Assembly: GCA_013298595.1 (NCBI GenBank)
Contig: JAAFIG010000063.1
Location: 1-8,288, forward strand
Length of the DNA: 8,288 nucleotides
Direction: 5' to 3'
From: Deinococcales bacterium
Lineage (GTDB): Bacteria; Deinococcota; Deinococci; Deinococcales; JAAFIG01
Every line of letters begins with the position of its first letter. Position 1 is the stretch's first letter. Positions 1-8,288 of the stretch are shown here, piece after piece. The position numbers were made by a program, and so were the translations under genes. A model generated the notes under the pieces. It searched no databases and had not been told where the DNA came from. It saw only the letters and a list, made by a program, of their open reading frames with translations.

Positions 1-234
1 TTTTCAGATGGTAGTCAGCAACTTCTTGTACTGCAAGGTGGCTTTCGCGGTTGGTATAGTGCAGATATTAAGCCAGATGCGGCAAATCCGCTCAAAAACG
101 ATAGTTATCGTGTCTGGGGTGTGAATATCTCGGCACAAAAGCCATTGCAAAAACTCGAGTTACTTGAAACTCCTGAAGTCTGGAAGGGCTTACCAGCCAA
201 GCCAAAAGTGATTGCCTCAAGAACATTTAATTGA
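1..234 (+). CDS. C-terminal 77 residues of an unidentified protein
   Basis: The first frame is open from base 1 to a TGA at 232-234, so the gene starts before the window. The visible peptide begins FSDGSQQLLVLQGGFRGWYS and ends KPKVIASRTFN. It has alternating hydrophobic and polar residues with several aromatics (GGFRGWYSAD, SYRVWGVNIS), which looks like beta strands. No membrane segment or catalytic motif is visible. A CTCGAG site at 154-159 encodes Leu-Glu, as in neighbouring real genes. I do not recognise the family. It is called coding because the frame is open to the edge and its composition is protein-like. It converges on the kinase gene that ends at 415. Confidence 0.6.
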   Translation, partial: FSDGSQQLLVLQGGFRGWYSADIKPDAANPLKNDSYRVWGVNISAQKPLQKLELLETPEVWKGLPAKPKVIASRTFN

Positions 235-414
235 AAATCTTGTATTAGACAGCCTTTTTAACTTCAAATCATCAAAAGATAGGACAAGCGATGCCTCATC
301 AAGGTTTGTAAGTAATTTTTTGTCCTGAGTAGCTTTACTGTCTAGTAAAATTTGAAATATAAATTTCACGAAGTAAATATAATTGTGATTTATTTCACTT
401 ACTTATTATGTTAC
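235..414. other. AT-rich convergent intergenic region, no gene
   Basis: This 180-base gap lies between two genes that end towards each other. No ORF with a start and ribosome site is visible. It holds weak dyads only: AGGACAA at 281-287 with TTGTCCT at 320-326, a six-base hairpin TGAAAT-ATAA-ATTTCA near 352-367, and TGTGA-N6-TCACT at 384-399. One may help end transcription, but none has the G+C-rich stem plus T-run of a standard intrinsic terminator. Confidence 0.5.
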
Positions 415-1641
415 TCATACAATAGTAAAAACCCTTGTCTCTAGTGGTAACTTCATGGCAAAAACTGCACCTGCATCATTACGAGCTTCCATCACACCAC
501 CATGAGCTTCAACCACAGCCTTTGCAATTGCTAAACCCAAACCATGATGTGGTGTCCCAGTGCGTTCTCGAGCAGTATCACCTCGGTAAAAACGTTCAAA
601 AACCCGCTCAGGATGGGGGAGACCTCGTCCATTATCAGCTACTATTAAACACACAAACGCGGTTTCAAGCGTGGCACTGACCACCACTCGAGAAGCAGAA
701 CTGTGCTCCAAGGCATTTTCAAGTAAGTTGCGAATCACGCGTTCAAGCTGCATCGGATCGAGGTTTGCCTGAATTTCTTGCATGGGTGCAAGCATTAATG
801 CCACACCATTTTCAGATGCCCTATTTTCCAACGATGCTAAAATACTTTCGAGCCACGGTTTAATTTGTACTACGCGTTTCTCGAGTCTTAATGCTCCTGT
901 TTCGGCTGTTGAAAGGGTTCGTAAATCATTGACCATCCGAGAAATCAGACTGACTTCATTGAGTAATCTATCCAGCGTGGCATCATCTCGGAGACGAATT
1001 CCATCCTGCATTGCTTCGAGTTCAGCCCGCATGACCCCAAGTGGGTTGCGAAGATCGTGAGCAATATCGGCAACGACTTGTTGTCGCCAAGTTTCTTGTT
1101 GCTCGAGATGTTCAGAAAGCTGATTAAAAGCCAGACTAACGGTTTGTAATTCGTCTTTGGATTCGGGAATTGGGACACGAACACCACGTTCACCACTAGA
1201 AACTGCTTTGGCTGCTTTCTCGAGAGCAATAAGCGGTTGAGTTAAGCGCCGTGTGACTAAGGCAGCGGCAAAAGCTGCTAACAAAACCGCACCAATACCA
1301 CCCCAAAAAACTGTGCTGGTCATGTTGCGAAAAGCTTTTTGGGCTTGTAATTGCGCGTTGTTATTACCAAAAAAATTAAATGAAAAAGGATCCAGAAACG
1401 GATCATCTATTCGCACCCGCCGACCATCTGGTAATTCGATAATCCTCGAGACATCATTAGCGGCTTTTTGAATAGCTCTGATACTCAAAAAACCTGTGAA
1501 ACACACAGCTGCCAGAGCAACCAAAGCAAACCACATGGTTAATCGGCGGCGCAAACCAGATTTACGCCATGAACGCGACCTCGAGTATTCAAGTCGCGAA
1601 TAAGAAAGCATTTTTTGCTGCCAAAACTTGTGTTTTTGCAT
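415..1641 (-). CDS. Membrane sensor histidine kinase (HAMP-HisKA-HATPase_c)
   Basis: A 408-residue inner-membrane kinase that should autophosphorylate on histidine and pass the phosphate to the response regulator encoded just upstream. Segments in order: a basic N-terminus; membrane helix about 34-56; a short outside loop of about 55 residues; second helix about 111-130; HAMP about 130-183; HisKA with the H-box DIAHDLRNP (phospho-acceptor His195); then an ATPase domain with N-box LLENALEHS (305-313), G1 DNGRG (336-340), F-box VFERFYR (347-353) and G2 HGLGLAIA. All key residues are present. The ATG directly follows the regulator's TAA, with GAGGGG five bases before it inside the regulator gene, so the pair is translationally coupled. 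The overall form is that of BaeS/MprB-type envelope-stress kinases. The small sensor loop gives no clue to the signal. Confidence 0.93.
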   Translation of the reverse strand: MQKHKFWQQKMLSYSRLEYSRSRSWRKSGLRRRLTMWFALVALAAVCFTGFLSIRAIQKAANDVSRIIELPDGRRVRIDDPFLDPFSFNFFGNNNAQLQAQKAFRNMTSTVFWGGIGAVLLAAFAAALVTRRLTQPLIALEKAAKAVSSGERGVRVPIPESKDELQTVSLAFNQLSEHLEQQETWRQQVVADIAHDLRNPLGVMRAELEAMQDGIRLRDDATLDRLLNEVSLISRMVNDLRTLSTAETGALRLEKRVVQIKPWLESILASLENRASENGVALMLAPMQEIQANLDPMQLERVIRNLLENALEHSSASRVVVSATLETAFVCLIVADNGRGLPHPERVFERFYRGDTARERTGTPHHGLGLAIAKAVVEAHGGVMEARNDAGAVFAMKLPLETRVFTIV

Positions 1642-2316
1642 TTAAGCCCCTCGCAAACGATAACCCACACCACGCACTGTCTCGAGTAAATCGCCATGCA
1701 AGCCAAGTTTCTTACGAATGTTTTTAATATGCGCGTCCACCGTGCGCTCATCGGCGTATGAATCTGTGCCACCACTTTGCTCGAGTAACTCGGCACGCAA
1801 ACGCACTCGAGAAGGTTCTTTTGCCAGCAAACCTAACATACGTACTTCGGCAGTGGTCATCGGTACAGATTCACCAGCAACATGCACCTCGAACGAAGAA
1901 AGATTGACTTCAATAGCACCAACCCGTAAGGCTTGTGGTACAACAACAGCTCCTTGCACACGGCGTAATACCGCTTTGACTCGAGCCATGACTTCTCTGG
2001 GGCTATACGGTTTGACCACATAATCATCTGCGCCTAAACCAAGTCCGACCAATTTATCCACTTCGTCATCTCTGGCTGTCAGCATGATAATGGGTGTACT
2101 AGACTCAGCTCGAACCCGACGTGCCACCTCGAGACCATCCATTTCAGGCAACATCAAATCAAGTAAAATCAGATCAGGAGCTGCAGCACGCCACAATTCA
2201 AGTGCTCGAGTGCCAGTGCGAGCGCGTTCGGTCTTAAAACCTTCGCGGCGCACATATTCCTCGAGCACATCCGCTAAACGGGTTTCGTCTTCAACGATCA
2301 AAATAGTGCCAGACAT
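1642..2316 (-). CDS. OmpR/PhoB-family response regulator
   Basis: A 224-residue two-domain transcription factor. The receiver domain (about 4-115) has the acidic pair Glu9/Asp10, the phospho-acceptor Asp53 in LLDLMLPEMDG, Thr80 in IIMLTARDD and Lys102 in VVKPYSPREV. The C-terminal winged helix (about 125-222) has the family features, including ERTVDAHIKNIRKKL as recognition helix and the VRGVGYRL wing at the end. The cognate kinase starts on the next base after the stop. No Shine-Dalgarno precedes the ATG. Instead TATCAT ends six bases before it, consistent with a leaderless message. An ATG eight bases upstream is out of frame. Seven CTCGAG sites fall within 675 bases, the densest of any gene here. 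The targets are unknown, but the SHOCT gene upstream is a plausible one. Confidence 0.95.
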   Translation of the reverse strand: MSGTILIVEDETRLADVLEEYVRREGFKTERARTGTRALELWRAAAPDLILLDLMLPEMDGLEVARRVRAESSTPIIMLTARDDEVDKLVGLGLGADDYVVKPYSPREVMARVKAVLRRVQGAVVVPQALRVGAIEVNLSSFEVHVAGESVPMTTAEVRMLGLLAKEPSRVRLRAELLEQSGGTDSYADERTVDAHIKNIRKKLGLHGDLLETVRGVGYRLRGA

Positions 2317-2322
2317 AGGGGC

Positions 2323-2328
2323 ATGATA
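2323..2328 (-). promoter_or_regulatory. Possible -10 box of a leaderless response-regulator transcript
   Basis: On the minus strand TATCAT is followed by six bases and then the regulator's ATG, so transcription would begin at or next to the start codon. No TTGACA-like -35 lies at the right distance (TTCCCC there). The call rests on the spacing, on the absence of a ribosome site, and on the same arrangement at two other genes of this window. Confidence 0.4.
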
Positions 2329-2337
2329 AAGGATAGA

Positions 2338-2371
2338 GGAGGAAGGGGGAAGGTATTTCCCTTCCTTCCTC
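2338..2371 (-). terminator. GA/CT-rich hairpin between SHOCT gene and response regulator
   Basis: GAGGAA...GGAAGG (2339-2353, with a three-base GGG bulge) pairs with CCTTCCTTCCTC (2360-2371) around a six-base loop. Read on the minus strand it lies just after the SHOCT stop and ahead of the regulator's putative -10. No T-run follows, so it may be a weak terminator, an attenuator or an mRNA-stabilising stem. It suggests that the SHOCT gene and the two-component genes are at least partly uncoupled. Confidence 0.45.
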
Positions 2372-2377
2372 TGCTTT

Positions 2378-2803
2378 TCAAGCGCGAAGTGCGTTTTTAA
2401 TCATCTCGAAGGTCTCGAGACTGATTTCACCACTGGCTAGGCGTTGCCGTGCAATTTTAAGGGCAGGGTCGGATTCATTAGCAATTTCGAGTTGGGTTTT
2501 TAAGTCCTCGAATTGCTCTGGGGTAATCTCGGATTTAGCTAAACGCACACGGGCTGTCTCGAGGGCATCATCGGATTTCCATTTGTTACGAAATTCTTGT
2601 TTACCTTGTTGCCACATGGTTCGGAAATTCTCTCGACCACCACTCCATGCCATCGCTCGAGCGCGTCCACCATATTTAAATAACCGAAACGCCCAAAAAA
2701 TTGCAGCAATAATAAATACAAACCACAGCACTTTGAATAAACCTGCAAGAAAAAACCAACCAGGATCCACGAATTGCATACCATCACGAAAATTATGCCA
2801 CAT
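2378..2803 (-). CDS. Small membrane protein with two SHOCT motifs
   Basis: A 141-residue protein starting MWHNFRDGM. One membrane helix lies at about 16-41 (GWFFLAGLFKVLWFVFIIAA...), followed by a basic patch KYGGRARA and a charged linker. Two tandem SHOCT (short C-terminal) motifs follow: about 78-103 (DALETARVRLAKSEITPEQFEDLK) and 112-139 (DPALKIARQRLASGEISLETFEM). In the family these motifs are thought to aid oligomerisation. Translation could also start at a GTG three codons upstream (2810-2812). I prefer the ATG at 2801-2803 because AAGGAG ends eight bases before it, whereas that Shine-Dalgarno overlaps the GTG. The gene lies 61 bases ahead of the response regulator on the same strand, which suggests a functional link to the two-component system, perhaps as a sensor partner or target. 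That link is an inference. Confidence 0.88.
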   Translation of the reverse strand: MWHNFRDGMQFVDPGWFFLAGLFKVLWFVFIIAAIFWAFRLFKYGGRARAMAWSGGRENFRTMWQQGKQEFRNKWKSDDALETARVRLAKSEITPEQFEDLKTQLEIANESDPALKIARQRLASGEISLETFEMIKNALRA

Positions 2804-2909
2804 CAGAAACACTCCTTTTCACTCAAGCGAACCTGCTCGAGCGGTGAACGTATTGTGCAACGAAGCTGTGAAGTGAATTTGCTGCGATTATGAACCAAGC
2901 ATGAAGCGT

Positions 2910-2915
2910 TAAACT
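2910..2915 (+). promoter_or_regulatory. Possible -10 box of a leaderless nitroreductase transcript
   Basis: TAAACT is followed by six bases (AGGCTA) and then the ATG at 2922. No purine-rich ribosome site precedes the ATG. No good -35 is visible at 16-18 bases. The spacing is the same as at the response regulator. Confidence 0.4.
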
Positions 2916-2921
2916 AGGCTA

Positions 2922-3578
2922 ATGAAAACAACCAAGTACAAAGCGCTGGAATTTACTAGACTTGAGCCGTCTCTGATGCAATCTCGAGCCAAACACTTTG
3001 CTTTGCAAATGCAGCAACGTCGATCAGTAAGGTTTTATGCTAACGAAGATGTGCCACGAGAACTGATTGAACTAGCCATTCAAACAGCAAGCACAGCGCC
3101 AAGTGGTGCCCATAAACAACCGTGGACGTTTGTGGCAATTCGTAACCAAAACCTAAAAGAAAAAATTCGAGAAGCTGTCGAAGCTGAGGAACTCGAAACA
3201 TACACCAAACGAATGCCACAAGAATGGCGTGCTGCTCTCGAACCAATTGGTACTGACTATATCAAAGAACATATTACCGATGCTCCTTGGATCGTGATTT
3301 TGTTTAAACAAAAAACGGGTTTGAATGGCGAAAAACACTACTATGTGACCGAATCTGCCAGTATCGCTGCTGGTTTTTTTATTGCAGCACTGCATAACAT
3401 GGGTTTGGCAACATTAACCCACACGCCAAACCCAATGAAAATTCTAGCGCAACTACTCGAGCGTCCAAGTAACGAAGAAGCCATGTTGCTGTTTCCGATC
3501 GGGTATCCAAGAACTGATTGCCTCGTTCCAAATTTAACTCGCAAATTACTCGAGCAAGTTGCAGTATTTCATGAATAA
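2922..3578 (+). CDS. Nitroreductase-fold flavoenzyme, iodotyrosine deiodinase type
   Basis: A 218-residue FMN enzyme of the nitroreductase superfamily. The N-terminal RRSVRFY (33-39) and PSGAHKQPW (60-68) supply the phosphate- and flavin-binding contacts. GFFIAALHNMGLATLTHTPN (141-160) and FPIGYP (171-176) are typical of the subgroup containing iodotyrosine deiodinase. The active-site lid of that subgroup is present: Glu90 and Tyr94 in EELETYTKRM and Lys115 in GTDYIKE match the Glu/Tyr/Lys trio that holds the amino-acid part of the substrate in characterised deiodinases. A bacterium is unlikely to have iodotyrosine as its main substrate, so dehalogenation or reduction of other aromatics is possible. 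No signal peptide is seen, so it is cytoplasmic. It is divergent from the SHOCT gene, probably leaderless, and ends four bases from the pseudogene's stop on the other strand. Confidence 0.9.
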   Translation: MKTTKYKALEFTRLEPSLMQSRAKHFALQMQQRRSVRFYANEDVPRELIELAIQTASTAPSGAHKQPWTFVAIRNQNLKEKIREAVEAEELETYTKRMPQEWRAALEPIGTDYIKEHITDAPWIVILFKQKTGLNGEKHYYVTESASIAAGFFIAALHNMGLATLTHTPNPMKILAQLLERPSNEEAMLLFPIGYPRTDCLVPNLTRKLLEQVAVFHE

Positions 3579-3582
3579 ACCC

Positions 3583-4164
3583 TCAACGTGGTACGAGTTC
3601 AAATTGAGCCTCAAATGGCTCGAGCGTCCCTAAAGCGTACTGCATAGCTGCTTTAGAATTTAAACTTTTGGCTTGTGCTGCAAGACGCAGCAATTGCTCT
3701 TCCGTAAAAATAATGGTGCTTTGGCTTGAAGTAAACTGATTGGGTTCTAACTCGTCCAAATTAAAATCCAGTTCTGGTTGAGAGCGCCAAATGTTGGCAA
3801 TGGCGTTTAGCCGTAAGGCTTAGGCGATTTAACAAAAACATGCCAAGTTGTTTTCTGGCTGAAGCAAACCAAAAGTAAAGTGCTGAATAAACAATTTTTG
3901 CTGCTAATTGCGGTTGGGTCTGCACTGCCCACTCGAGGGCTAAACTGATGTTCTCAAATTCCAAAGCAAATGACGCAGATTTTTACGGACGGTGACAGAA
4001 TCCGAATCCTCAAAAAAAAGCAATGCCAATTGCTCTCGAGATACCCAATCGGCTTTGAACGCCAAATACGCCAGCAGTAAAAAACGCTTATCCGATAAGA
4101 AAACCACCTCGAGGTTATCGAGGTTGACCTTGGCAACACCAAGCAACTGCACAGAGGGAATCAT
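3583..4164 (-). pseudogene. Wreck of a SARP/MalT-like large transcriptional regulator
   Basis: Three pieces remain in order. Positions 4164-3943 encode MIPSVQLLGVAKVNL, then DKRFLLLAYLAF, WVSREQLALLFFEDSD and VRKNLRHLLW, the DNA-binding N-terminus of SARP-like activators; the frame then stops at 3940-3942. From about 3964 another frame reads LEFENISLALEWAVQTQPQL, which resembles the E-L-x-N-L-x-A-A-L-E-W-A segment normally found hundreds of residues later, after the ATPase; it stops at 3761. The original frame reopens at 3819 with ALRLNAIANIWRSQPEL and runs 78 residues to TGA at 3583-3585. Family members are usually about 900-1100 residues, so the transducer and ATPase domains are gone. A large internal deletion near 3955-3975 and a second lesion near 3820-3850 explain the layout. 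The upstream boundary is uncertain, because the first frame is open to a TTG at 4221. Convergent with the nitroreductase gene. Confidence 0.75.
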
Positions 4165-4238
4165 TGTCTGAGAGCATTCTAACTGCTTTTGGCAAATAGC
4201 GTCGCGCCGCCAAAAACCCAAAGCGAAACTCGAGCTAA

Positions 4239-4284
4239 AAGCTAAAAATCATCGTCTGATAAAAGCCTATTGGTTTTTTAGCTT
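4239..4284. repeat. Ten-base perfect inverted repeat, wide loop
   Basis: AAGCTAAAAA at 4239-4248 is the exact reverse complement of TTTTTAGCTT at 4275-4284, with a 26-base loop. Within the loop and right arm, AAAAGCC-TATT-GGTTTTT could form an alternative A/T-rich hairpin. It lies ahead of the pseudogene's start. The function is unknown; a protein-binding dyad or a weak terminator is possible. Confidence 0.45.
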
Positions 4285-4286
4285 CT

Positions 4287-4332
4287 CAACGTTGCACGGA
4301 AAATTTTTCATGCGACGTTGGTGCGACGCACC
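4287..4332. promoter_or_regulatory. Stacked dyads upstream of the exported-protein gene
   Basis: CAACGTTGCA (4287-4296) pairs with TGCGACGTTG (4311-4320) over ten bases with one mismatch, or a G-U pair in RNA. The second arm runs straight into GGTGCG-A-CGCACC (4320-4332), a perfect odd-length dyad. TGCGACG recurs at 4311 and 4322, that is 11 bases or one helical turn apart. It lies in the divergent gap between the wrecked regulator and the gene at 4398, about 65 bases before that gene. It could be an operator or an RNA structure. No strong promoter hexamers are evident. Confidence 0.4.
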
Positions 4333-4397
4333 ATTTTGCATACTCACCACATCGCTCGAGGAAAATAAAAATTAAAAACTCGAGTTTTGGAGGACAT

Positions 4398-4841
4398 ATG
4401 AAAAAATGGTTTTTAATCTTGGTTGCAGTTCTTGGATTCTCGAGTTTAGCTGGCGCACAAAAATTCTCGGTAGGTGGTGGTTTAACCAGCCAATTTCAAT
4501 ACGGTTTTGTTTTAGGAATTGGTCTTAACGTCGGGGTAGAAGATTTAGTGAAATTTGGTCAAGACTTTGGATTAGATGCTCGAGTTGACATCGAAGGTGC
4601 ATTTGCCGCAGGTGGTTTTTTCTTCGGCGCGAGTGCAGCCGTACTAGGTTCATATCAAATCACTGATCTCGATATTTACTTTGGACCTCGAATCACAATC
4701 GGTTCTGCCATCGGTTTTGGTGGCTTAATTGGTCTGCGTTACGACCTGACTAACAAAATCGGTTTATACGTCGAAACAAGACTTTTGTTTGTTCCAGCTT
4801 TCGATTACCAAGCTGCTATCGGCATTCGTTTCCTACTCTAA
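4398..4841 (+). CDS. Small exported beta-rich protein, probable outer-membrane barrel
   Basis: A 147-residue protein with a clear Sec signal peptide: MKKW, a hydrophobic stretch, and a likely signal peptidase I site after SLAGA (residue 20). The mature part is rich in Gly and aromatics and alternates polar and hydrophobic residues in strand-length runs: SVGGGLTSQFQYGFVLGIGL, LDIYFGPRITIGSAIGFGGL, GLYVETRLLFVPAF and AIGIRFLL. That pattern fits a small transmembrane beta barrel of about eight strands. The last residue is Leu rather than the Phe common in proteobacterial barrels. GGAGG lies four bases before the ATG. There is no family name I can assign. A hairpin containing CTCGAG follows the stop, so it may be transcribed alone or with the next gene 100 bases on. 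Confidence 0.82.
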   Translation: MKKWFLILVAVLGFSSLAGAQKFSVGGGLTSQFQYGFVLGIGLNVGVEDLVKFGQDFGLDARVDIEGAFAAGGFFFGASAAVLGSYQITDLDIYFGPRITIGSAIGFGGLIGLRYDLTNKIGLYVETRLLFVPAFDYQAAIGIRFLL

Positions 4842-4866
4842 AATAGCCCGCTCATTTTGATTGAAG

Positions 4867-4892
4867 AGGCTCGAGACCCCTAACTCGAGCCT
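4867..4892 (+). terminator. Hairpin built from two CTCGAG sites
   Basis: AGGCTCGAG (4867-4875) and CTCGAGCCT (4884-4892) form a perfect nine-base stem with loop ACCCCTAA, 25 bases after the exported-protein stop. TTGGATTC follows rather than a T-run. It is G+C-rich and well placed as a terminator or processing stem. It may also simply be two copies of the genome's iterated palindrome. Confidence 0.45.
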
Positions 4893-4941
4893 TGGATTCA
4901 AAAAGGTCTTTCGCCCTCTCTCGAGCTTCAAAGGAGTTCTT

Positions 4942-5241
4942 ATGTTCGCTAGAATCATCACCAGCCAAATGAAAGTCAGTCGTATTGATACCGCCGCCAG
5001 TATCTGGCAGAAATCCGCAACCGAGGACTTAAAACCAATGAATGGTTTCAAGGGCAGTTACGTGAACGCTGACCGAACAAGCGGTAAAACCGTTGTGGTG
5101 AGCTTCTGGGACACCGAAGCGGATGCCAAAGCAGTTAGCTCGAGTGGGACGTACCAAAAAATCTCTGAACTCCTCAAAGACCACATTGACGAAAGCGTAC
5201 CCCCTCAACTCGAGATTCTTGAGGTTGTAGCACACGTTTAA
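4942..5241 (+). CDS. Dimeric alpha/beta-barrel (ABM-like) small protein
   Basis: A 99-residue cytoplasmic protein beginning MFARIITSQMKVSRIDTAAS. The layout beta strand, helix (IWQKSATEDLKP), GFKGSYVNADRTSGKTVVVSFWDTEADAKA, C-terminal helix (YQKISELLKDHI) and closing strand PQLEILEVVAHV is typical of ferredoxin-like antibiotic-biosynthesis-monooxygenase relatives that dimerise into a barrel. Such proteins range from haem-degrading and quinol-forming monooxygenases to enzymes with no known reaction. I see no residue set that decides the reaction here. The frame is open upstream to about 4861, but AAGGAG five to six bases before the ATG at 4942 sets the start, and the N-terminus then matches the family. 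Confidence 0.85.
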   Translation: MFARIITSQMKVSRIDTAASIWQKSATEDLKPMNGFKGSYVNADRTSGKTVVVSFWDTEADAKAVSSSGTYQKISELLKDHIDESVPPQLEILEVVAHV

Positions 5242-5285
5242 CTCGTTTTTTCGCCTCGAGCCTTAACAAGGCAATAAAGCAGACT

Positions 5286-5351
5286 GGGCGATCACAAGGA
5301 TCGCCCCTACGTTAAAAATCATGTTCTGCAGGGGCGAACTTTATGTTCGCC
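5286..5351. repeat. REPIN-like pair of inverted palindromic repeats
   Basis: Hairpin one: GGGCGATC-ACAAG-GATCGCCC at 5286-5306, continuing CCTAC. Hairpin two: GGCGAAC-TTTAT-GTTCGCC at 5333-5351, preceded by GCAGG. The reverse complement of 5286-5310 aligns with 5328-5352 at about 19 of 25 positions. The stem changes are compensatory (GATC/GATC against GAAC/GTTC), so the structure is conserved. The two units face opposite ways across about 17 spacer bases, which is the REPIN layout. GTAGGGGCGA...TCGCCC hairpins are common dispersed repeats in many genomes. The element sits in the 192-base gap before the 59-residue gene; no transposase is in the window. Confidence 0.7.
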
Positions 5352-5433
5352 TTGCACGAAAGTCAGATGTTTTTCTTGCCAATCAACCGATTTTTCGCCT
5401 TGAGTCTTGAATTAAAAACCATTAAGGAGAACC

Positions 5434-5613
5434 ATGTTAGACAACCTCAACCTTGTTTTCCCAATTATTGAAAATCATGAAACCAGACTTGAGCCTGACA
5501 TGGCTCGAGAACAAACGGTACAACCGCATCCAGCCGAAGAAATCAGCCTTCAGACAAGCTATTGGGAACAAGATATAGCCCATTATTTCTTGGTGCAATT
5601 CGGTACGTTTTGA
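5434..5613 (+). CDS. Small protein of 59 residues, unknown function
   Basis: ATG at 5434 is preceded by AAGGAG four bases upstream, as good a ribosome site as any in the window. The frame runs MLDNLNLVFPIIENHETRLE... to ...DIAHYFLVQFGTF and TGA at 5611-5613. The protein is acidic (many Glu/Asp), with no signal peptide, cysteine or membrane helix. The C-terminus is hydrophobic and aromatic. It contains one CTCGAG. It lies 59 bases before the protease gene on the same strand. I do not recognise it. A small regulatory peptide or a partner of the protease is possible but unsupported. It could also be a remnant, although the strong ribosome site argues for expression. Confidence 0.5.
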   Translation: MLDNLNLVFPIIENHETRLEPDMAREQTVQPHPAEEISLQTSYWEQDIAHYFLVQFGTF

Positions 5614-5672
5614 CAATCCTGCGACCTTTTAACTCGAGAACTCCAAACTCGAGGCTGCACCAAAAGGAAACC

Positions 5673-7466
5673 ATGAAAAAAATCTCTTTATTCGGTTGCA
5701 TTGCTCTGCTCGGCATTGGTTTAGTAGCTTGTCCATCTCCAACCAATATGCGGGCTTCGGTCAAAGGAAAAATCAATTTAGCCAACACCAAACCACAAAG
5801 CGCTCCTGTGTTCGTCCAAGGTCAAGTGATTGTGAAGTTCCGCAGCGGACTTCAAGCGACCAATGCCGTGAAATTACAAGCATCCGGAATTCAATTGGCT
5901 CGAGTTCGCACATTAGGCATTGAACGCACAGCCCTATATAACTCAAACGCAACCCATGACCAAACCCTAAAAATGGTCGCCGAATTAAATGCCCGATCTG
6001 ATGTTGAATACGCTCAAGTCTCGAGAATCTATCAACCCAAGTCAACTGTACCAAACGATACTCATTACAATTTGCAATGGCATTACACCAACATGAATAT
6101 CCCAGCCGCATGGGAAATCACCACTGGTGTGGAAAGTACCGTGGTTGCCGTAGTGGATGACGGAATGCTTTACAACGCTGCCAGTCCAGATGCTGCCACA
6201 AACGATGCTGACCCGCTAACCCACCCTGATTTTGCTGGCAAAGTGATTGGTGGTTACGACTTTATCTCGGATACTGCGGCGGCTGGGGATGGTAATGGAC
6301 GCGACAATAATCCTTACGATGTTAGCCGTGGATTGCATGGCACACACGTCGCTGGAACAATTGCTGCTGCCACCAACAACAATGCTTTTGGGGCAGGAGT
6401 CAATTGGAATGCTAAACTGTTGAACATCAGAGTTTTAGGTAAAGGTGGCGGCTCAGAAGCTGACATTACCGATGGTGTCCTTTGGGCGGCAGGTTTAGCA
6501 GCAGGTGGGTTACCCATCAACCCAAACCCAGCCAAGGTAATCAACATGAGCCTTGGCGGAGACGGAGCTTGTACACCCTTTGAGCAAGATGTTTATAACA
6601 AAGTAGTTGCGGCTGGTGCAATTATTATTGTCGCCGCAGGCAACGAAAACGAAAATGTCAGTAAACCCAAAGCCCCCGCCAATTGCCAGAACGTGATTAC
6701 TGTAGGTGCGACAGGTTCAAACAATCGTCGTGCGCCATACTCGAACTTTGGTCCTCGAGTGGATGTTATGGCACCTGGCGGCGACAGTTCACTATCCATT
6801 ACCGTGAACGACAAACGATACCAAGGTGGTGTTTTTAGCACTTACATGAACGCAGGTAAAACCGCTTTTAACCTCGGAGCAATAGATGGTACAAGCATGG
6901 CAACACCACACATTGCTGGTTTGGTCAGTTTAATGGTTGGCTTGAAACCAAGCATGACTTTCACCGAAGCTCGAGATTTGCTAAGAAACAATGCCAACGC
7001 CTTAGCGGCAGGTGCATGTAGCGCTGGCAATGCTGCGATAGACGACAGCACAGGTTGCGGAGCTGGTCTGGTGGATGCCGCCAAAACCCTGCAAGCGGTT
7101 CAGGCTTCGCTTGGTGTGACCGTACCCGTGCCGACTCCACCTGCCCCTCCTGCTGCCAATCCAGTCAAGCTCTTTGTCTTGGCTGACAATCCGTTCGACC
7201 TAAACGACAAACAAGTCGAAGTTACACTCCCCACCCTCCAGAATGTGACTCCTAAATTTTCACAAAGCGCAAGCGCTTCGCCCAACAGTGTCAGTTACAG
7301 CATCACCGATCTTGCACCAGGAATGTACACAATCCGAGTATATGCCGACCTTGACGGTGACAAGAAATTCGATGCCGATGAACCATCTGGCACAAGCGAG
7401 GAAGAACTAACCAGTGGTGAAAACAAAGAAGACGAAGACCTCGAGATGAGTCCAGACAGCCCGTAA
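5673..7466 (+). CDS. Secreted subtilisin-like (S8) serine protease, lipoprotein
   Basis: A 597-residue protease. The signal MKKISLFGCIALLGIGLVAC ends in a lipobox with Cys20, so the protein should be lipid-anchored outside the inner membrane. A pro-region (about 45-120; VFVQGQVIVKFRSGL... DVEYAQVSRIYQP) resembles the I9-type inhibitor that is cleaved off. The catalytic triad is Asp162 (VAVVDDG), His222 (HGTHVAGTI) and Ser408 (GTSMATPHIAG). The oxyanion Asn is Asn324 (AAGNEN). The serine motif has the usual GTSMATP, but a second Asp replaces the common Ser/Thr after the catalytic Asp. The catalytic domain ends near 478, followed by a Pro-rich linker (PVPTPPAPPAANP) and a beta domain with DLDGDKKFDADE (560-571), a calcium-loop-like stretch, then a very acidic tail. 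The frame opens 37 codons earlier, but AAGGA five bases before ATG 5673 and the signal peptide fix the start. Confidence 0.95.
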   Translation: MKKISLFGCIALLGIGLVACPSPTNMRASVKGKINLANTKPQSAPVFVQGQVIVKFRSGLQATNAVKLQASGIQLARVRTLGIERTALYNSNATHDQTLKMVAELNARSDVEYAQVSRIYQPKSTVPNDTHYNLQWHYTNMNIPAAWEITTGVESTVVAVVDDGMLYNAASPDAATNDADPLTHPDFAGKVIGGYDFISDTAAAGDGNGRDNNPYDVSRGLHGTHVAGTIAAATNNNAFGAGVNWNAKLLNIRVLGKGGGSEADITDGVLWAAGLAAGGLPINPNPAKVINMSLGGDGACTPFEQDVYNKVVAAGAIIIVAAGNENENVSKPKAPANCQNVITVGATGSNNRRAPYSNFGPRVDVMAPGGDSSLSITVNDKRYQGGVFSTYMNAGKTAFNLGAIDGTSMATPHIAGLVSLMVGLKPSMTFTEARDLLRNNANALAAGACSAGNAAIDDSTGCGAGLVDAAKTLQAVQASLGVTVPVPTPPAPPAANPVKLFVLADNPFDLNDKQVEVTLPTLQNVTPKFSQSASASPNSVSYSITDLAPGMYTIRVYADLDGDKKFDADEPSGTSEEELTSGENKEDEDLEMSPDSP

Positions 7467-7484
7467 GCAACAAGCCTAAATCAT

Positions 7485-7514
7485 GAGTCGGGTGGGTTTT
7501 CACCCACCCGACTC
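7485..7514 (+). terminator. Perfect 12-base hairpin after the protease gene
   Basis: GAGTCGGGTGGG (7485-7496) and CCCACCCGACTC (7503-7514) are exact complements around TTTTCA, 18 bases after the stop. It can extend to 13 pairs with loop TTTC. GAGCCGTTTATG follows, so no real T-run is present. It is very stable and well placed, so most likely a terminator, though not of the canonical form. Its right foot overlaps a CTCGAG. Confidence 0.7.
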
Positions 7515-7634
7515 GAGCCGTTTATGTCAGCATCGCTGCCAAAATCCCAAGAATCTCAGGTCATTTAAGACTGCTTATCCACCGTTAAAACGTTCTGCTC
7601 GAGATGCAAGAAAGTCAAGTGTAACAACTCGTGA

Positions 7635-7640
7635 TACAGT
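7635..7640 (+). promoter_or_regulatory. Possible extended -10 box before the glycoside hydrolase
   Basis: TACAGT preceded by TG plus one base (TGnTAnnnT) ends five bases before the ATG at 7646. No Shine-Dalgarno lies between. This would start the transcript at or next to the start codon. No clear -35 is seen, which is common for extended -10 promoters. Confidence 0.4.
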
Positions 7641-7645
7641 GATTT

Positions 7646-8288
7646 ATGAAACAACAACGAATGATTGCAGGCTTGGTTTTGACGCTTGGGACGGTTATTT
7701 TGCTTTCCCAGAATGTGATGACGGCAACTTTACAAGTGGCTGTTGTTGACAACACCAGCTTGCAGCAAAAGATGCTGGTCGGCTATCAAGGCTGGTTTGC
7801 GGCTCCTGGTGACGGTTCTCGAGTCAATAATTGGAGTCACTGGCTGAAAGGCAATGCGCCCAATCAAACGCCTTTGGTGGATATGTGGCCCGACTTGCGC
7901 GAGTACGATGCAGACGAGCTTTTTTCCACACCGCTGACCCTGCCCAGTGGCAGCCCCGCCAAAGCATTTTCGTCTTTCAAAGAAAAAACGGTTTTGCGGC
8001 ACTTTCGCTGGATGCAGGAAGCTGGGATTGATGGCGCTTTGCTGCAACGTTTTGTGCGTGCAATTCAAGACCCAAGGTTTTTTGATTTTCGCAACCAAGT
8101 CACACGCAACGTGATCAAAGGCGCTGAAACGTACGGGCGTGTATTTGCGATGGAATATGATCTTTCGATTCAGGATGCCGAGTTGCTGAAAAAAGATTGG
8201 ATGTTCCTTGTTGATACCCTCAAAGTCACGGCAAGCTCGCGTTATTTGCGTCACAAAGGTCGTCCACTCTTGGCAATCTGGGGGATTG
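7646..8288 (+). CDS. Secreted glycoside hydrolase, GH71/99-like, 5' part
   Basis: The frame starts MKQQRMIAGLVLTLGTVILL, a signal peptide with probable cleavage near residue 27 (MTA), and stays open to the window edge (214 codons), so the C-terminus is missing. The mature start KMLVGYQGWFAAPGDGSRV (42-60), then NNWSHW, LVDMWPDLREYD, STPLTLPSGSPAKAFSS, TVLRHFRWMQEAGIDGALLQRF (115-136) and GRVFAMEYDLS (164-174) follow the pattern of bacterial 71/99-like barrel enzymes, annotated variously as xylosidase/arabinosidase-like or endo-mannosidase-related. The catalytic acids of GH99 lie in the later half, outside this window, so substrate and activity cannot be judged. An exported sugar-cleaving enzyme is the safe reading. 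Only one CTCGAG (7818) occurs in 643 bases. Confidence 0.8.
   Translation, partial: MKQQRMIAGLVLTLGTVILLSQNVMTATLQVAVVDNTSLQQKMLVGYQGWFAAPGDGSRVNNWSHWLKGNAPNQTPLVDMWPDLREYDADELFSTPLTLPSGSPAKAFSSFKEKTVLRHFRWMQEAGIDGALLQRFVRAIQDPRFFDFRNQVTRNVIKGAETYGRVFAMEYDLSIQDAELLKKDWMFLVDTLKVTASSRYLRHKGRPLLAIWGI

Follow-up and report, generated by a model that had tools for sequence, protein, structure and literature searches.

Saturation of a Deinococcota genome with the CTCGAG palindrome: a candidate molecular drive of the HIP1 type

Introduction

Why should one six-letter word, CTCGAG, occur dozens of times in a few kilobases of ordinary bacterial DNA? The question was raised by the window studied here, the whole 8,288-nt stretch of contig JAAFIG010000063.1 (positions 1 to 8,288, forward strand) of a Deinococcales bacterium (GCA_013298595.1). 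A sequence-only reading of the window had counted about 48 copies against about two by chance, spread over both gene strands, all reading frames, intergenic DNA and a putative pseudogene (the stretch near 7.5-8.25 kb). It proposed that CTCGAG is a highly iterated palindrome, an analogue of the cyanobacterial HIP1 with a different sequence, driven at the DNA level rather than by protein need, and named methylation (with a possible orphan methylase), mismatch repair, chromosome packaging and DNA uptake as possible drivers. We examined whether the excess is real, whether it extends to the genome and its relatives, and which explanations survive.

Results

CTCGAG in the window and in the genome

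The count was correct: the window holds exactly 48 CTCGAG sites (Table 1), whereas dinucleotide shuffles gave a mean of 1.24, with a largest value of 5 in 200 shuffles. By our ORF calls, 15 sites lie in frame 0 (Leu-Glu), 12 in frame 1 (x-Arg-x) and 9 in frame 2 (x-Ser-Ser/Arg), over genes of both strands, and 12 lie outside the called ORFs.

Table 1. Position and reading frame of the 48 CTCGAG sites of the window.
Position	Strand	Location	Frame	Residues
154..159	.	outside called ORFs		
567..572	.	histidine kinase gene	1	ARE
687..692	.	histidine kinase gene	1	SRV
880..885	.	histidine kinase gene	0	LE
1102..1107	.	histidine kinase gene	0	LE
1219..1224	.	histidine kinase gene	0	LE
1445..1450	.	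histidine kinase gene	2	VSR
1580..1585	.	histidine kinase gene	2	YSR
1681..1686	.	response regulator gene	0	LE
1780..1785	.	response regulator gene	0	LE
1806..1811	.	response regulator gene	1	SRV
1980..1985	.	response regulator gene	1	ARV
2128..2133	.	response regulator gene	0	LE
2205..2210	.	response regulator gene	1	TRA
2260..2265	.	response regulator gene	0	LE
2414..2419	.	SHOCT-domain gene	0	LE
2558..2563	.	SHOCT-domain gene	0	LE
2656..2661	.	SHOCT-domain gene	1	ARA
2836..2841	.	outside called ORFs		
2983..2988	.	nitroreductase gene	1	SRA
3456..3461	.	nitroreductase gene	0	LE
3549..3554	.	nitroreductase gene	0	LE
3619..3624	.	outside called ORFs		
3932..3937	.	outside called ORFs		
4035..4040	.	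93-aa ORF	1	SRE
4108..4113	.	93-aa ORF	0	LE
4229..4234	.	outside called ORFs		
4355..4360	.	outside called ORFs		
4379..4384	.	outside called ORFs, just upstream of an ATG		
4439..4444	.	147-aa ORF	2	FSS
4579..4584	.	147-aa ORF	1	ARV
4870..4875	.	126-aa ORF	0	LE
4884..4889	.	126-aa ORF	2	NSS
4920..4925	.	126-aa ORF	2	LSS
5139..5144	.	126-aa ORF	2	SSS
5209..5214	.	126-aa ORF	0	LE
5255..5260	.	outside called ORFs		
5504..5509	.	outside called ORFs		
5633..5638	.	5' part of subtilase ORF (perhaps upstream of the true start)	2	NSR
5648..5653	.	5' part of subtilase ORF (perhaps upstream of the true start)	2	NSR
5899..5904	.	subtilase gene	1	ARV
6020..6025	.	subtilase gene	2	VSR
6754..6759	.	subtilase gene	1	PRV
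6970..6975	.	subtilase gene	1	ARD
7440..7445	.	subtilase gene	0	LE
7512..7517	.	outside called ORFs		
7598..7603	.	outside called ORFs		
7818..7823	.	outside called ORFs		

The excess was larger than the window alone could show. The 4.58-Mb genome holds 27,159 CTCGAG, about one every 170 bases or 5.9 per kb, against only 15 copies of GAGCTC, a reversed control of the same composition. A genome-wide frequency near expectation, or an enrichment explained by codon pairs alone, had been named beforehand as results that would refute the observation. However, the frequency was 30.6 times the base-composition expectation and 69 times that of a second-order Markov model, and codon pairs did not explain it (see next). 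The other three genomes of the family match, while relatives in other families range from strongly enriched to not at all.

Codons, dipeptides and non-coding DNA

The genome has a GC content of 45%, and outside Leu-Glu pairs CTC makes up 8% of Leu codons and GAG 19% of Glu codons. In contrast, 2,404 of 3,554 Leu-Glu pairs (68%) are written CTCGAG, where 1.6% is expected. Furthermore, the dipeptide itself is 2.4 times too common: Leu-Glu occurs 3,554 times against an expectation of 1,502, and Glu-Leu only 1,433 times. The motif is about equally dense in genes (5.94 per kb) and in non-coding DNA (5.36 per kb). No extended consensus was found in the non-coding flanks, and the motif is a bare hexamer.

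Turnover, spacing and near-cognate words

Comparison between species indicated that sites are lost and regenerated. At conserved Leu-Glu positions, 83% of CTCGAG sites were kept (baseline codons 0.33 and 0.46), and where Leu-Glu was coded otherwise in one species, 63% were CTCGAG in the other. One-off partners made up 8%, against 34% for all 6-mers. Transition near-cognates of CTCGAG stood at 1.0-2.5 times expectation and transversion near-cognates at 0.35-1.3 times. All three transition near-cognates were raised, T-to-C included, which speaks against an m5C deamination hot spot.

In comparisons of pairs of Leu-Glu positions, sites were independent of each other beyond about 20 bp, and counts per kilobase were Poisson (variance/mean 1.01). 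No period was found between 5 and 400 bp. In genes there was an exclusion within about 20 bp (P = 1e-4), which could have been the footprint of a bound protein. However, it was absent in non-coding DNA (20 pairs against 28 simulated at 6-12 bp, and 45 against 36 at 12-20 bp), so avoidance of RNA hairpins between neighbouring palindromes is the simpler reading.

Methyltransferases, restriction enzymes and phages

Searches with PF00145, PF01555, PF02086, PF02384 and PF07669 revealed no methyltransferase (MTase) shared across the four family genomes, which are 91-94% complete; the MTases found, of unknown specificity, are not orthologous across these genomes. All four genomes of the family carry some C5 MTase, as do two of three enriched genomes of the group f2, the third (G016) being 58% complete. 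However, the C5 MTase of the genome studied here (G000) and of G001 matches those of G002, G003 and G008 only at about 24-32% identity, and no PF01555, PF02086, PF02384 or PF07669 protein spans the four genomes. G063, a relative with 16,080 sites, and G059 have no C5 MTase. A search for an XhoI-family endonuclease (PF04555) gave no match in G000, but none in any control genome either, so it says little. Restriction avoidance was rejected as the cause because it depletes sites, and many other palindromes are indeed purged from this genome. Four scans of viral sequences were made for phages carrying the motif, and the best candidates had no protein match to G000.

Discussion

Our results confirmed the observation of the sequence-only reading. 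Its interpretation was supported in part: the view of CTCGAG as a HIP1 analogue with a different sequence, caused at the DNA level and not at the protein level, is strongly supported, whereas the suggested link to an orphan methylase is not supported by the five Pfam classes searched.

We favour, tentatively, the view that CTCGAG is the footprint of a per-site, sequence-specific molecular drive on the whole chromosome, of the HIP1 type. What the analysis itself demonstrates is a bare 6-bp palindrome favoured wherever the code allows it, at equal density in non-coding DNA, accompanied by an excess of the Leu-Glu dipeptide and regenerated between species. The mechanism, on the other hand, is inferred: a trans-acting factor that recognises the CTCGAG duplex would bias which allele survives. 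We propose a bias of the repair or gene-conversion type, in which a mismatch inside the word would be resolved in favour of the CTCGAG strand at each site independently. The independence of neighbouring sites and the Poisson counts are as expected for such a drive, and not for a function that saturates over about 1 kb. The near-cognate ratios fit decay by mutation against a restoring process better than equal-fitness selection. However, the transition/transversion asymmetry could also come from a binding protein that tolerates transition variants, or from a faulty null model. No factor, which need not be a methyltransferase, was found. A bolder version, a methylation-independent repair or conversion system that rewrites DNA towards CTCGAG one site at a time and is strong enough to change protein composition, would be a new class of genome-wide molecular drive; it is not excluded by the evidence, but we consider it unlikely.

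The strongest rival, though unlikely, is weak per-site selection, in which each CTCGAG would be a binding site of an abundant dimeric chromosomal protein (for packaging, segregation or repair) and every added site would give a small benefit. A palindromic hexamer without flanking consensus in non-coding DNA, independent additive sites, and an apparent scaled strength of about 3-5, inferred from the near-cognate ratios and compatible with nearly neutral selection, agree with it. In fact, such selection gives much the same equilibrium as biased conversion, so selection for protein binding is not excluded. Against it stand the lack of footprint-like exclusion in non-coding DNA and the near-cognate asymmetry, and no candidate protein emerged.

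Methylation-coupled accumulation is less likely still. In the model proposed for HIP1 and the alternate HIPs (Elhai 2015, PMC4390886), a CTCGAG methyltransferase together with methyl-directed mismatch repair would build up the site. This is a direct precedent, and m5C-methylated CTCGAG exists elsewhere, in Halorubrum (PMC8112702). However, the C5 MTases are not orthologous and are missing in G063 and G059, and the density exceeds the roughly 1 per kb at which that model saturates.

A DNA-uptake signal, by which competent cells would preferentially import fragments carrying CTCGAG and recombination would spread it, is about as doubtful. Uptake sequences are the best-studied molecular drive (PMC1939737). 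Furthermore, a probable Thermus genus lacks the enrichment, and Thermus uptake is not known to be sequence-specific. However, uptake bias should saturate at fragment scale, which does not agree with 5.9 sites per kb and independence beyond 20 bp, and a bare 6-bp palindrome would be an unusual uptake sequence.

Codon usage, composition or assembly artefact can be dismissed: although high-GC viral contigs do show CTCGAG excess along with CTC and GAG codon preference, the codon frequencies and non-coding density given above contradict it, and separately assembled genomes of several genera agree.

HIP1 has been without an agreed explanation since 1995. The present case is an independent one in another phylum, without an evident conserved methyltransferase, among the classes searched, of the kind the leading model needs. 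It has enriched and non-enriched relatives, near-complete genomes included, so the cause can be mapped by comparing gene content. It also shows that a DNA-level process can go with a more than twofold excess of a dipeptide across a proteome. Our literature searches found no prior description of this motif as a HIP in this phylum.

Among known systems, XhoI/PaeR7I restriction-modification has the same recognition sequence, but restriction sites are normally avoided, not enriched. Chi sites are also short over-represented words, though Chi is asymmetric, orientation-biased and sparser. The uptake sequences of Haemophilus (USS) and Neisseria (DUS) are likewise short words accumulated over the genome by molecular drive; they are longer, are not known to be palindromic and occur at about 1 per kb, whereas the CTCGAG sites are denser and behave independently. 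The closest systems are HIP1 (GCGATCGC) of cyanobacteria and the alternate HIPs (GGCGCC, rCCGGy, GCsGC, TCGATCGA and GGGATCCC) (Elhai 2015, PMC4390886). As with these, a palindrome is far over-represented genome-wide beyond composition and codon use, in genes of both strands, all frames and non-coding DNA, and lineage-wide with low frequency in some relatives; HIPs are replaced or lost in some relatives. It is not HIP1 itself: the HIP1 core CGATCG is depleted here (O/E 0.08), and the nearest relative among the genome contigs searched is a Deinococcales MAG. It differs from HIP1 in word and phylum, in being a bare hexamer with no cognate methyltransferase, among the classes searched, found conserved with it, in the effect on codons and dipeptides quantified here, and in density, at 5,927 per Mb against the 300-2,700 per Mb reported for HIP1, more than twice that range.

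Occurrence of CTCGAG in the genome and its relatives

In the window, 48 copies of CTCGAG were counted, whereas 200 dinucleotide shuffles gave 1.24 copies on average and 5 at most. By base composition 1.7 copies were expected, and no other hexameric palindrome exceeded 8. The sites fell in all three frames of genes on both strands and also outside ORFs. The window is contig 60 of a draft genome of 4.58 Mb (94% complete; G000), in which 27,159 CTCGAG (5,927 per Mb) were found against 15 copies of GAGCTC, its reversed control of the same composition. In genome_contigs, the nearest record was a MAG of a Deinococcales bacterium (phylum Deinococcota), whose histidine kinase was 74% identical and which carried 37 sites in 4.8 kb. 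The other three genomes of the family (f1) had 26,619-28,178 sites and 4-9 controls. However, the enrichment was not uniform among the other families. In family f2, the genomes G012, G016 and G008 were enriched while G004 (683 sites, 1,525 controls) was not. Several genera of family f5 (g13, g23 and g24, tentatively taken as the Meiothermus group) and genus g29 of family f3 were moderately enriched, whereas genus g7, probably Thermus, was not. Expressed as the log-odds of CTCGAG among Leu-Glu pairs against codon use elsewhere, the values were 2.9-4.9 in f1, 4.1 in G012, 4.9 in G016, 2.5 in G008, 3.2 in genome G105, 1.8 in g13, 0.4 in genome G006, -0.6 in g7 and -0.8 in G004, with samples of 6-61 kb except for G000 and G001.

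Two viral contigs also carried many copies. L406 (IMGVR_UViG_2756170196_000002; 52% GC, no host assigned) had 40 CTCGAG in 9.8 kb (15-fold) and 9 GAGCTC. L235 (IMGVR_UViG_3300018422_000001; 110 kb, 64% GC) had 57 CTCGAG and no GAGCTC in 9.7 kb, and none of its proteins matched the sampled part of G000.

Codon usage and protein composition

The enrichment was not explained by codon use. In 707 kb of G000 coding DNA, 2,404 of 3,554 Leu-Glu pairs were CTCGAG, where codon use elsewhere predicts 1.6%, and 63% and 37% of the eligible positions in the other two frames were also CTCGAG. Leu-Glu occurred 3,554 times against 1,433 for Glu-Leu and an expectation of 1,502, so the DNA word appears to have changed proteins. 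The related genome G001 agreed (70%; Leu-Glu 1,615, Glu-Leu 652). The density was 5.94 per kb in genes and 5.36 outside, and it was about the same 40-100 bp upstream of gene starts as inside genes. Kilobases of low GC, probably recent arrivals, had few sites (0.75 per kb below 34% GC). At the Leu-Glu sites of G000 and G001, CTCGAG was less favoured inside CCTCGAGG (0.41) and TCTCGAGA (0.47) than inside ACTCGAGT (0.73) or GCTCGAGC (0.69).

These genomes purge palindromes: 21 of 64 hexameric palindromes were below 0.1 of expectation in G000 and 26 in G001, against 1.4% of other hexamers, and CTCGAG at 66-69-fold was the single strong exception. In G000 (1.6 Mb sampled) and G001, GGCC (O/E 0.012), GRGCYC (0.009 and 0.006), CCGCGG (0.01), GGGCCC (0) and about a third or more of all hexameric palindromes were nearly absent, as if under heavy restriction pressure. 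The other three TCGA palindromes of the NTCGAN type were depleted in G000 (TTCGAA 0.02, GTCGAC 0.04, ATCGAT 0.23), while CTCGAG was 30.6-fold enriched.

Turnover of the sites

We compared 62 reciprocal-best pairs between G000 and G001 (median identity 81%; identical codons at 54% of conserved residues). A CTCGAG at a conserved Leu-Glu was kept in 145 of 175 cases, while CTC and GAG elsewhere were kept in 33% and 46%. Of the Leu-Glu coded otherwise, 40 of 63 were CTCGAG in the partner, indicating that the word is regenerated at eligible sites rather than only inherited. Partners one base away were rare (8%, against 34% for all 6-mers). Counts per kb were Poisson (variance/mean 1.01) and Leu-Glu pairs were independent beyond about 20 bp. 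The process therefore acts per site and does not saturate over kilobases. It is different from the mismatch-repair model of Elhai (2015; PMC4390886), which levels off near 1 per kb, and also from what fragment-level uptake bias should give, although the latter is our inference. The short-range exclusion found in genes (P = 1e-4) was absent outside them, which suggests avoidance of RNA hairpins between neighbouring palindromes; this reading is likewise inferred.

Against a Markov-2 null with CTCGAG masked, the three transition neighbours stood at 1.0-2.5 and the six transversion neighbours at 0.35-1.3 over the four data sets. By established population genetics, a reversible selection model with equal fitness predicts equal values, so this mildly favours a restoring process over pure selection. 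However, partial tolerance of a binding protein is an alternative.

METHYLTRANSFERASES

Profile searches of G000 revealed a HhaI-like C5 MTase (L009), an N4/N6 MTase beside a NotI-family endonuclease (L010), another N4/N6 MTase (L011), a 514-aa MTase matching PF02384 and PF07669 (L069), a 1,264-aa protein matching the same families, and a D12 hit. None of them had an orthologue in all four genomes of the family, though this negative is limited by draft genomes, by the unassigned specificities of the MTases and by the MTase families covered. G008 had no PF01555 or PF02086 protein, and the relatives G063 (16,080 sites) and G059 had no C5 MTase. The XhoI profile (PF04555) gave no match, but it gave none in any control genome either. 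The coordinates of the features located on individual loci are listed below.

Features with coordinates on the loci L010 and L025
Locus	Position	Feature
L010	1399-3245	N4/N6 MTase next to a NotI-family endonuclease (PF12183, E 3e-6); a probable restriction-modification system
L025	4468-5286 and 9998-10741	Two proteins sharing a near-identical N-terminal part (MQFVTRQNT...GGGGGGSGG) with different C-terminal parts, each followed by a low-GC gene; looks like a secreted family with swapped ends

Comparison with HIP1

In the open-access literature, which leaves out subscription papers and REBASE, we found no description of this motif as a HIP or of its enrichment in this phylum. CTCGAG works like a HIP and shows three of the four features of the class that were examined, whereas the evidence on the fourth, the link with a methyltransferase, leans negative without being conclusive. 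HIP1 is reported at 300-2,700 per Mb, with an O/E of 55-228 for an octamer, while CTCGAG is denser and is a bare hexamer.
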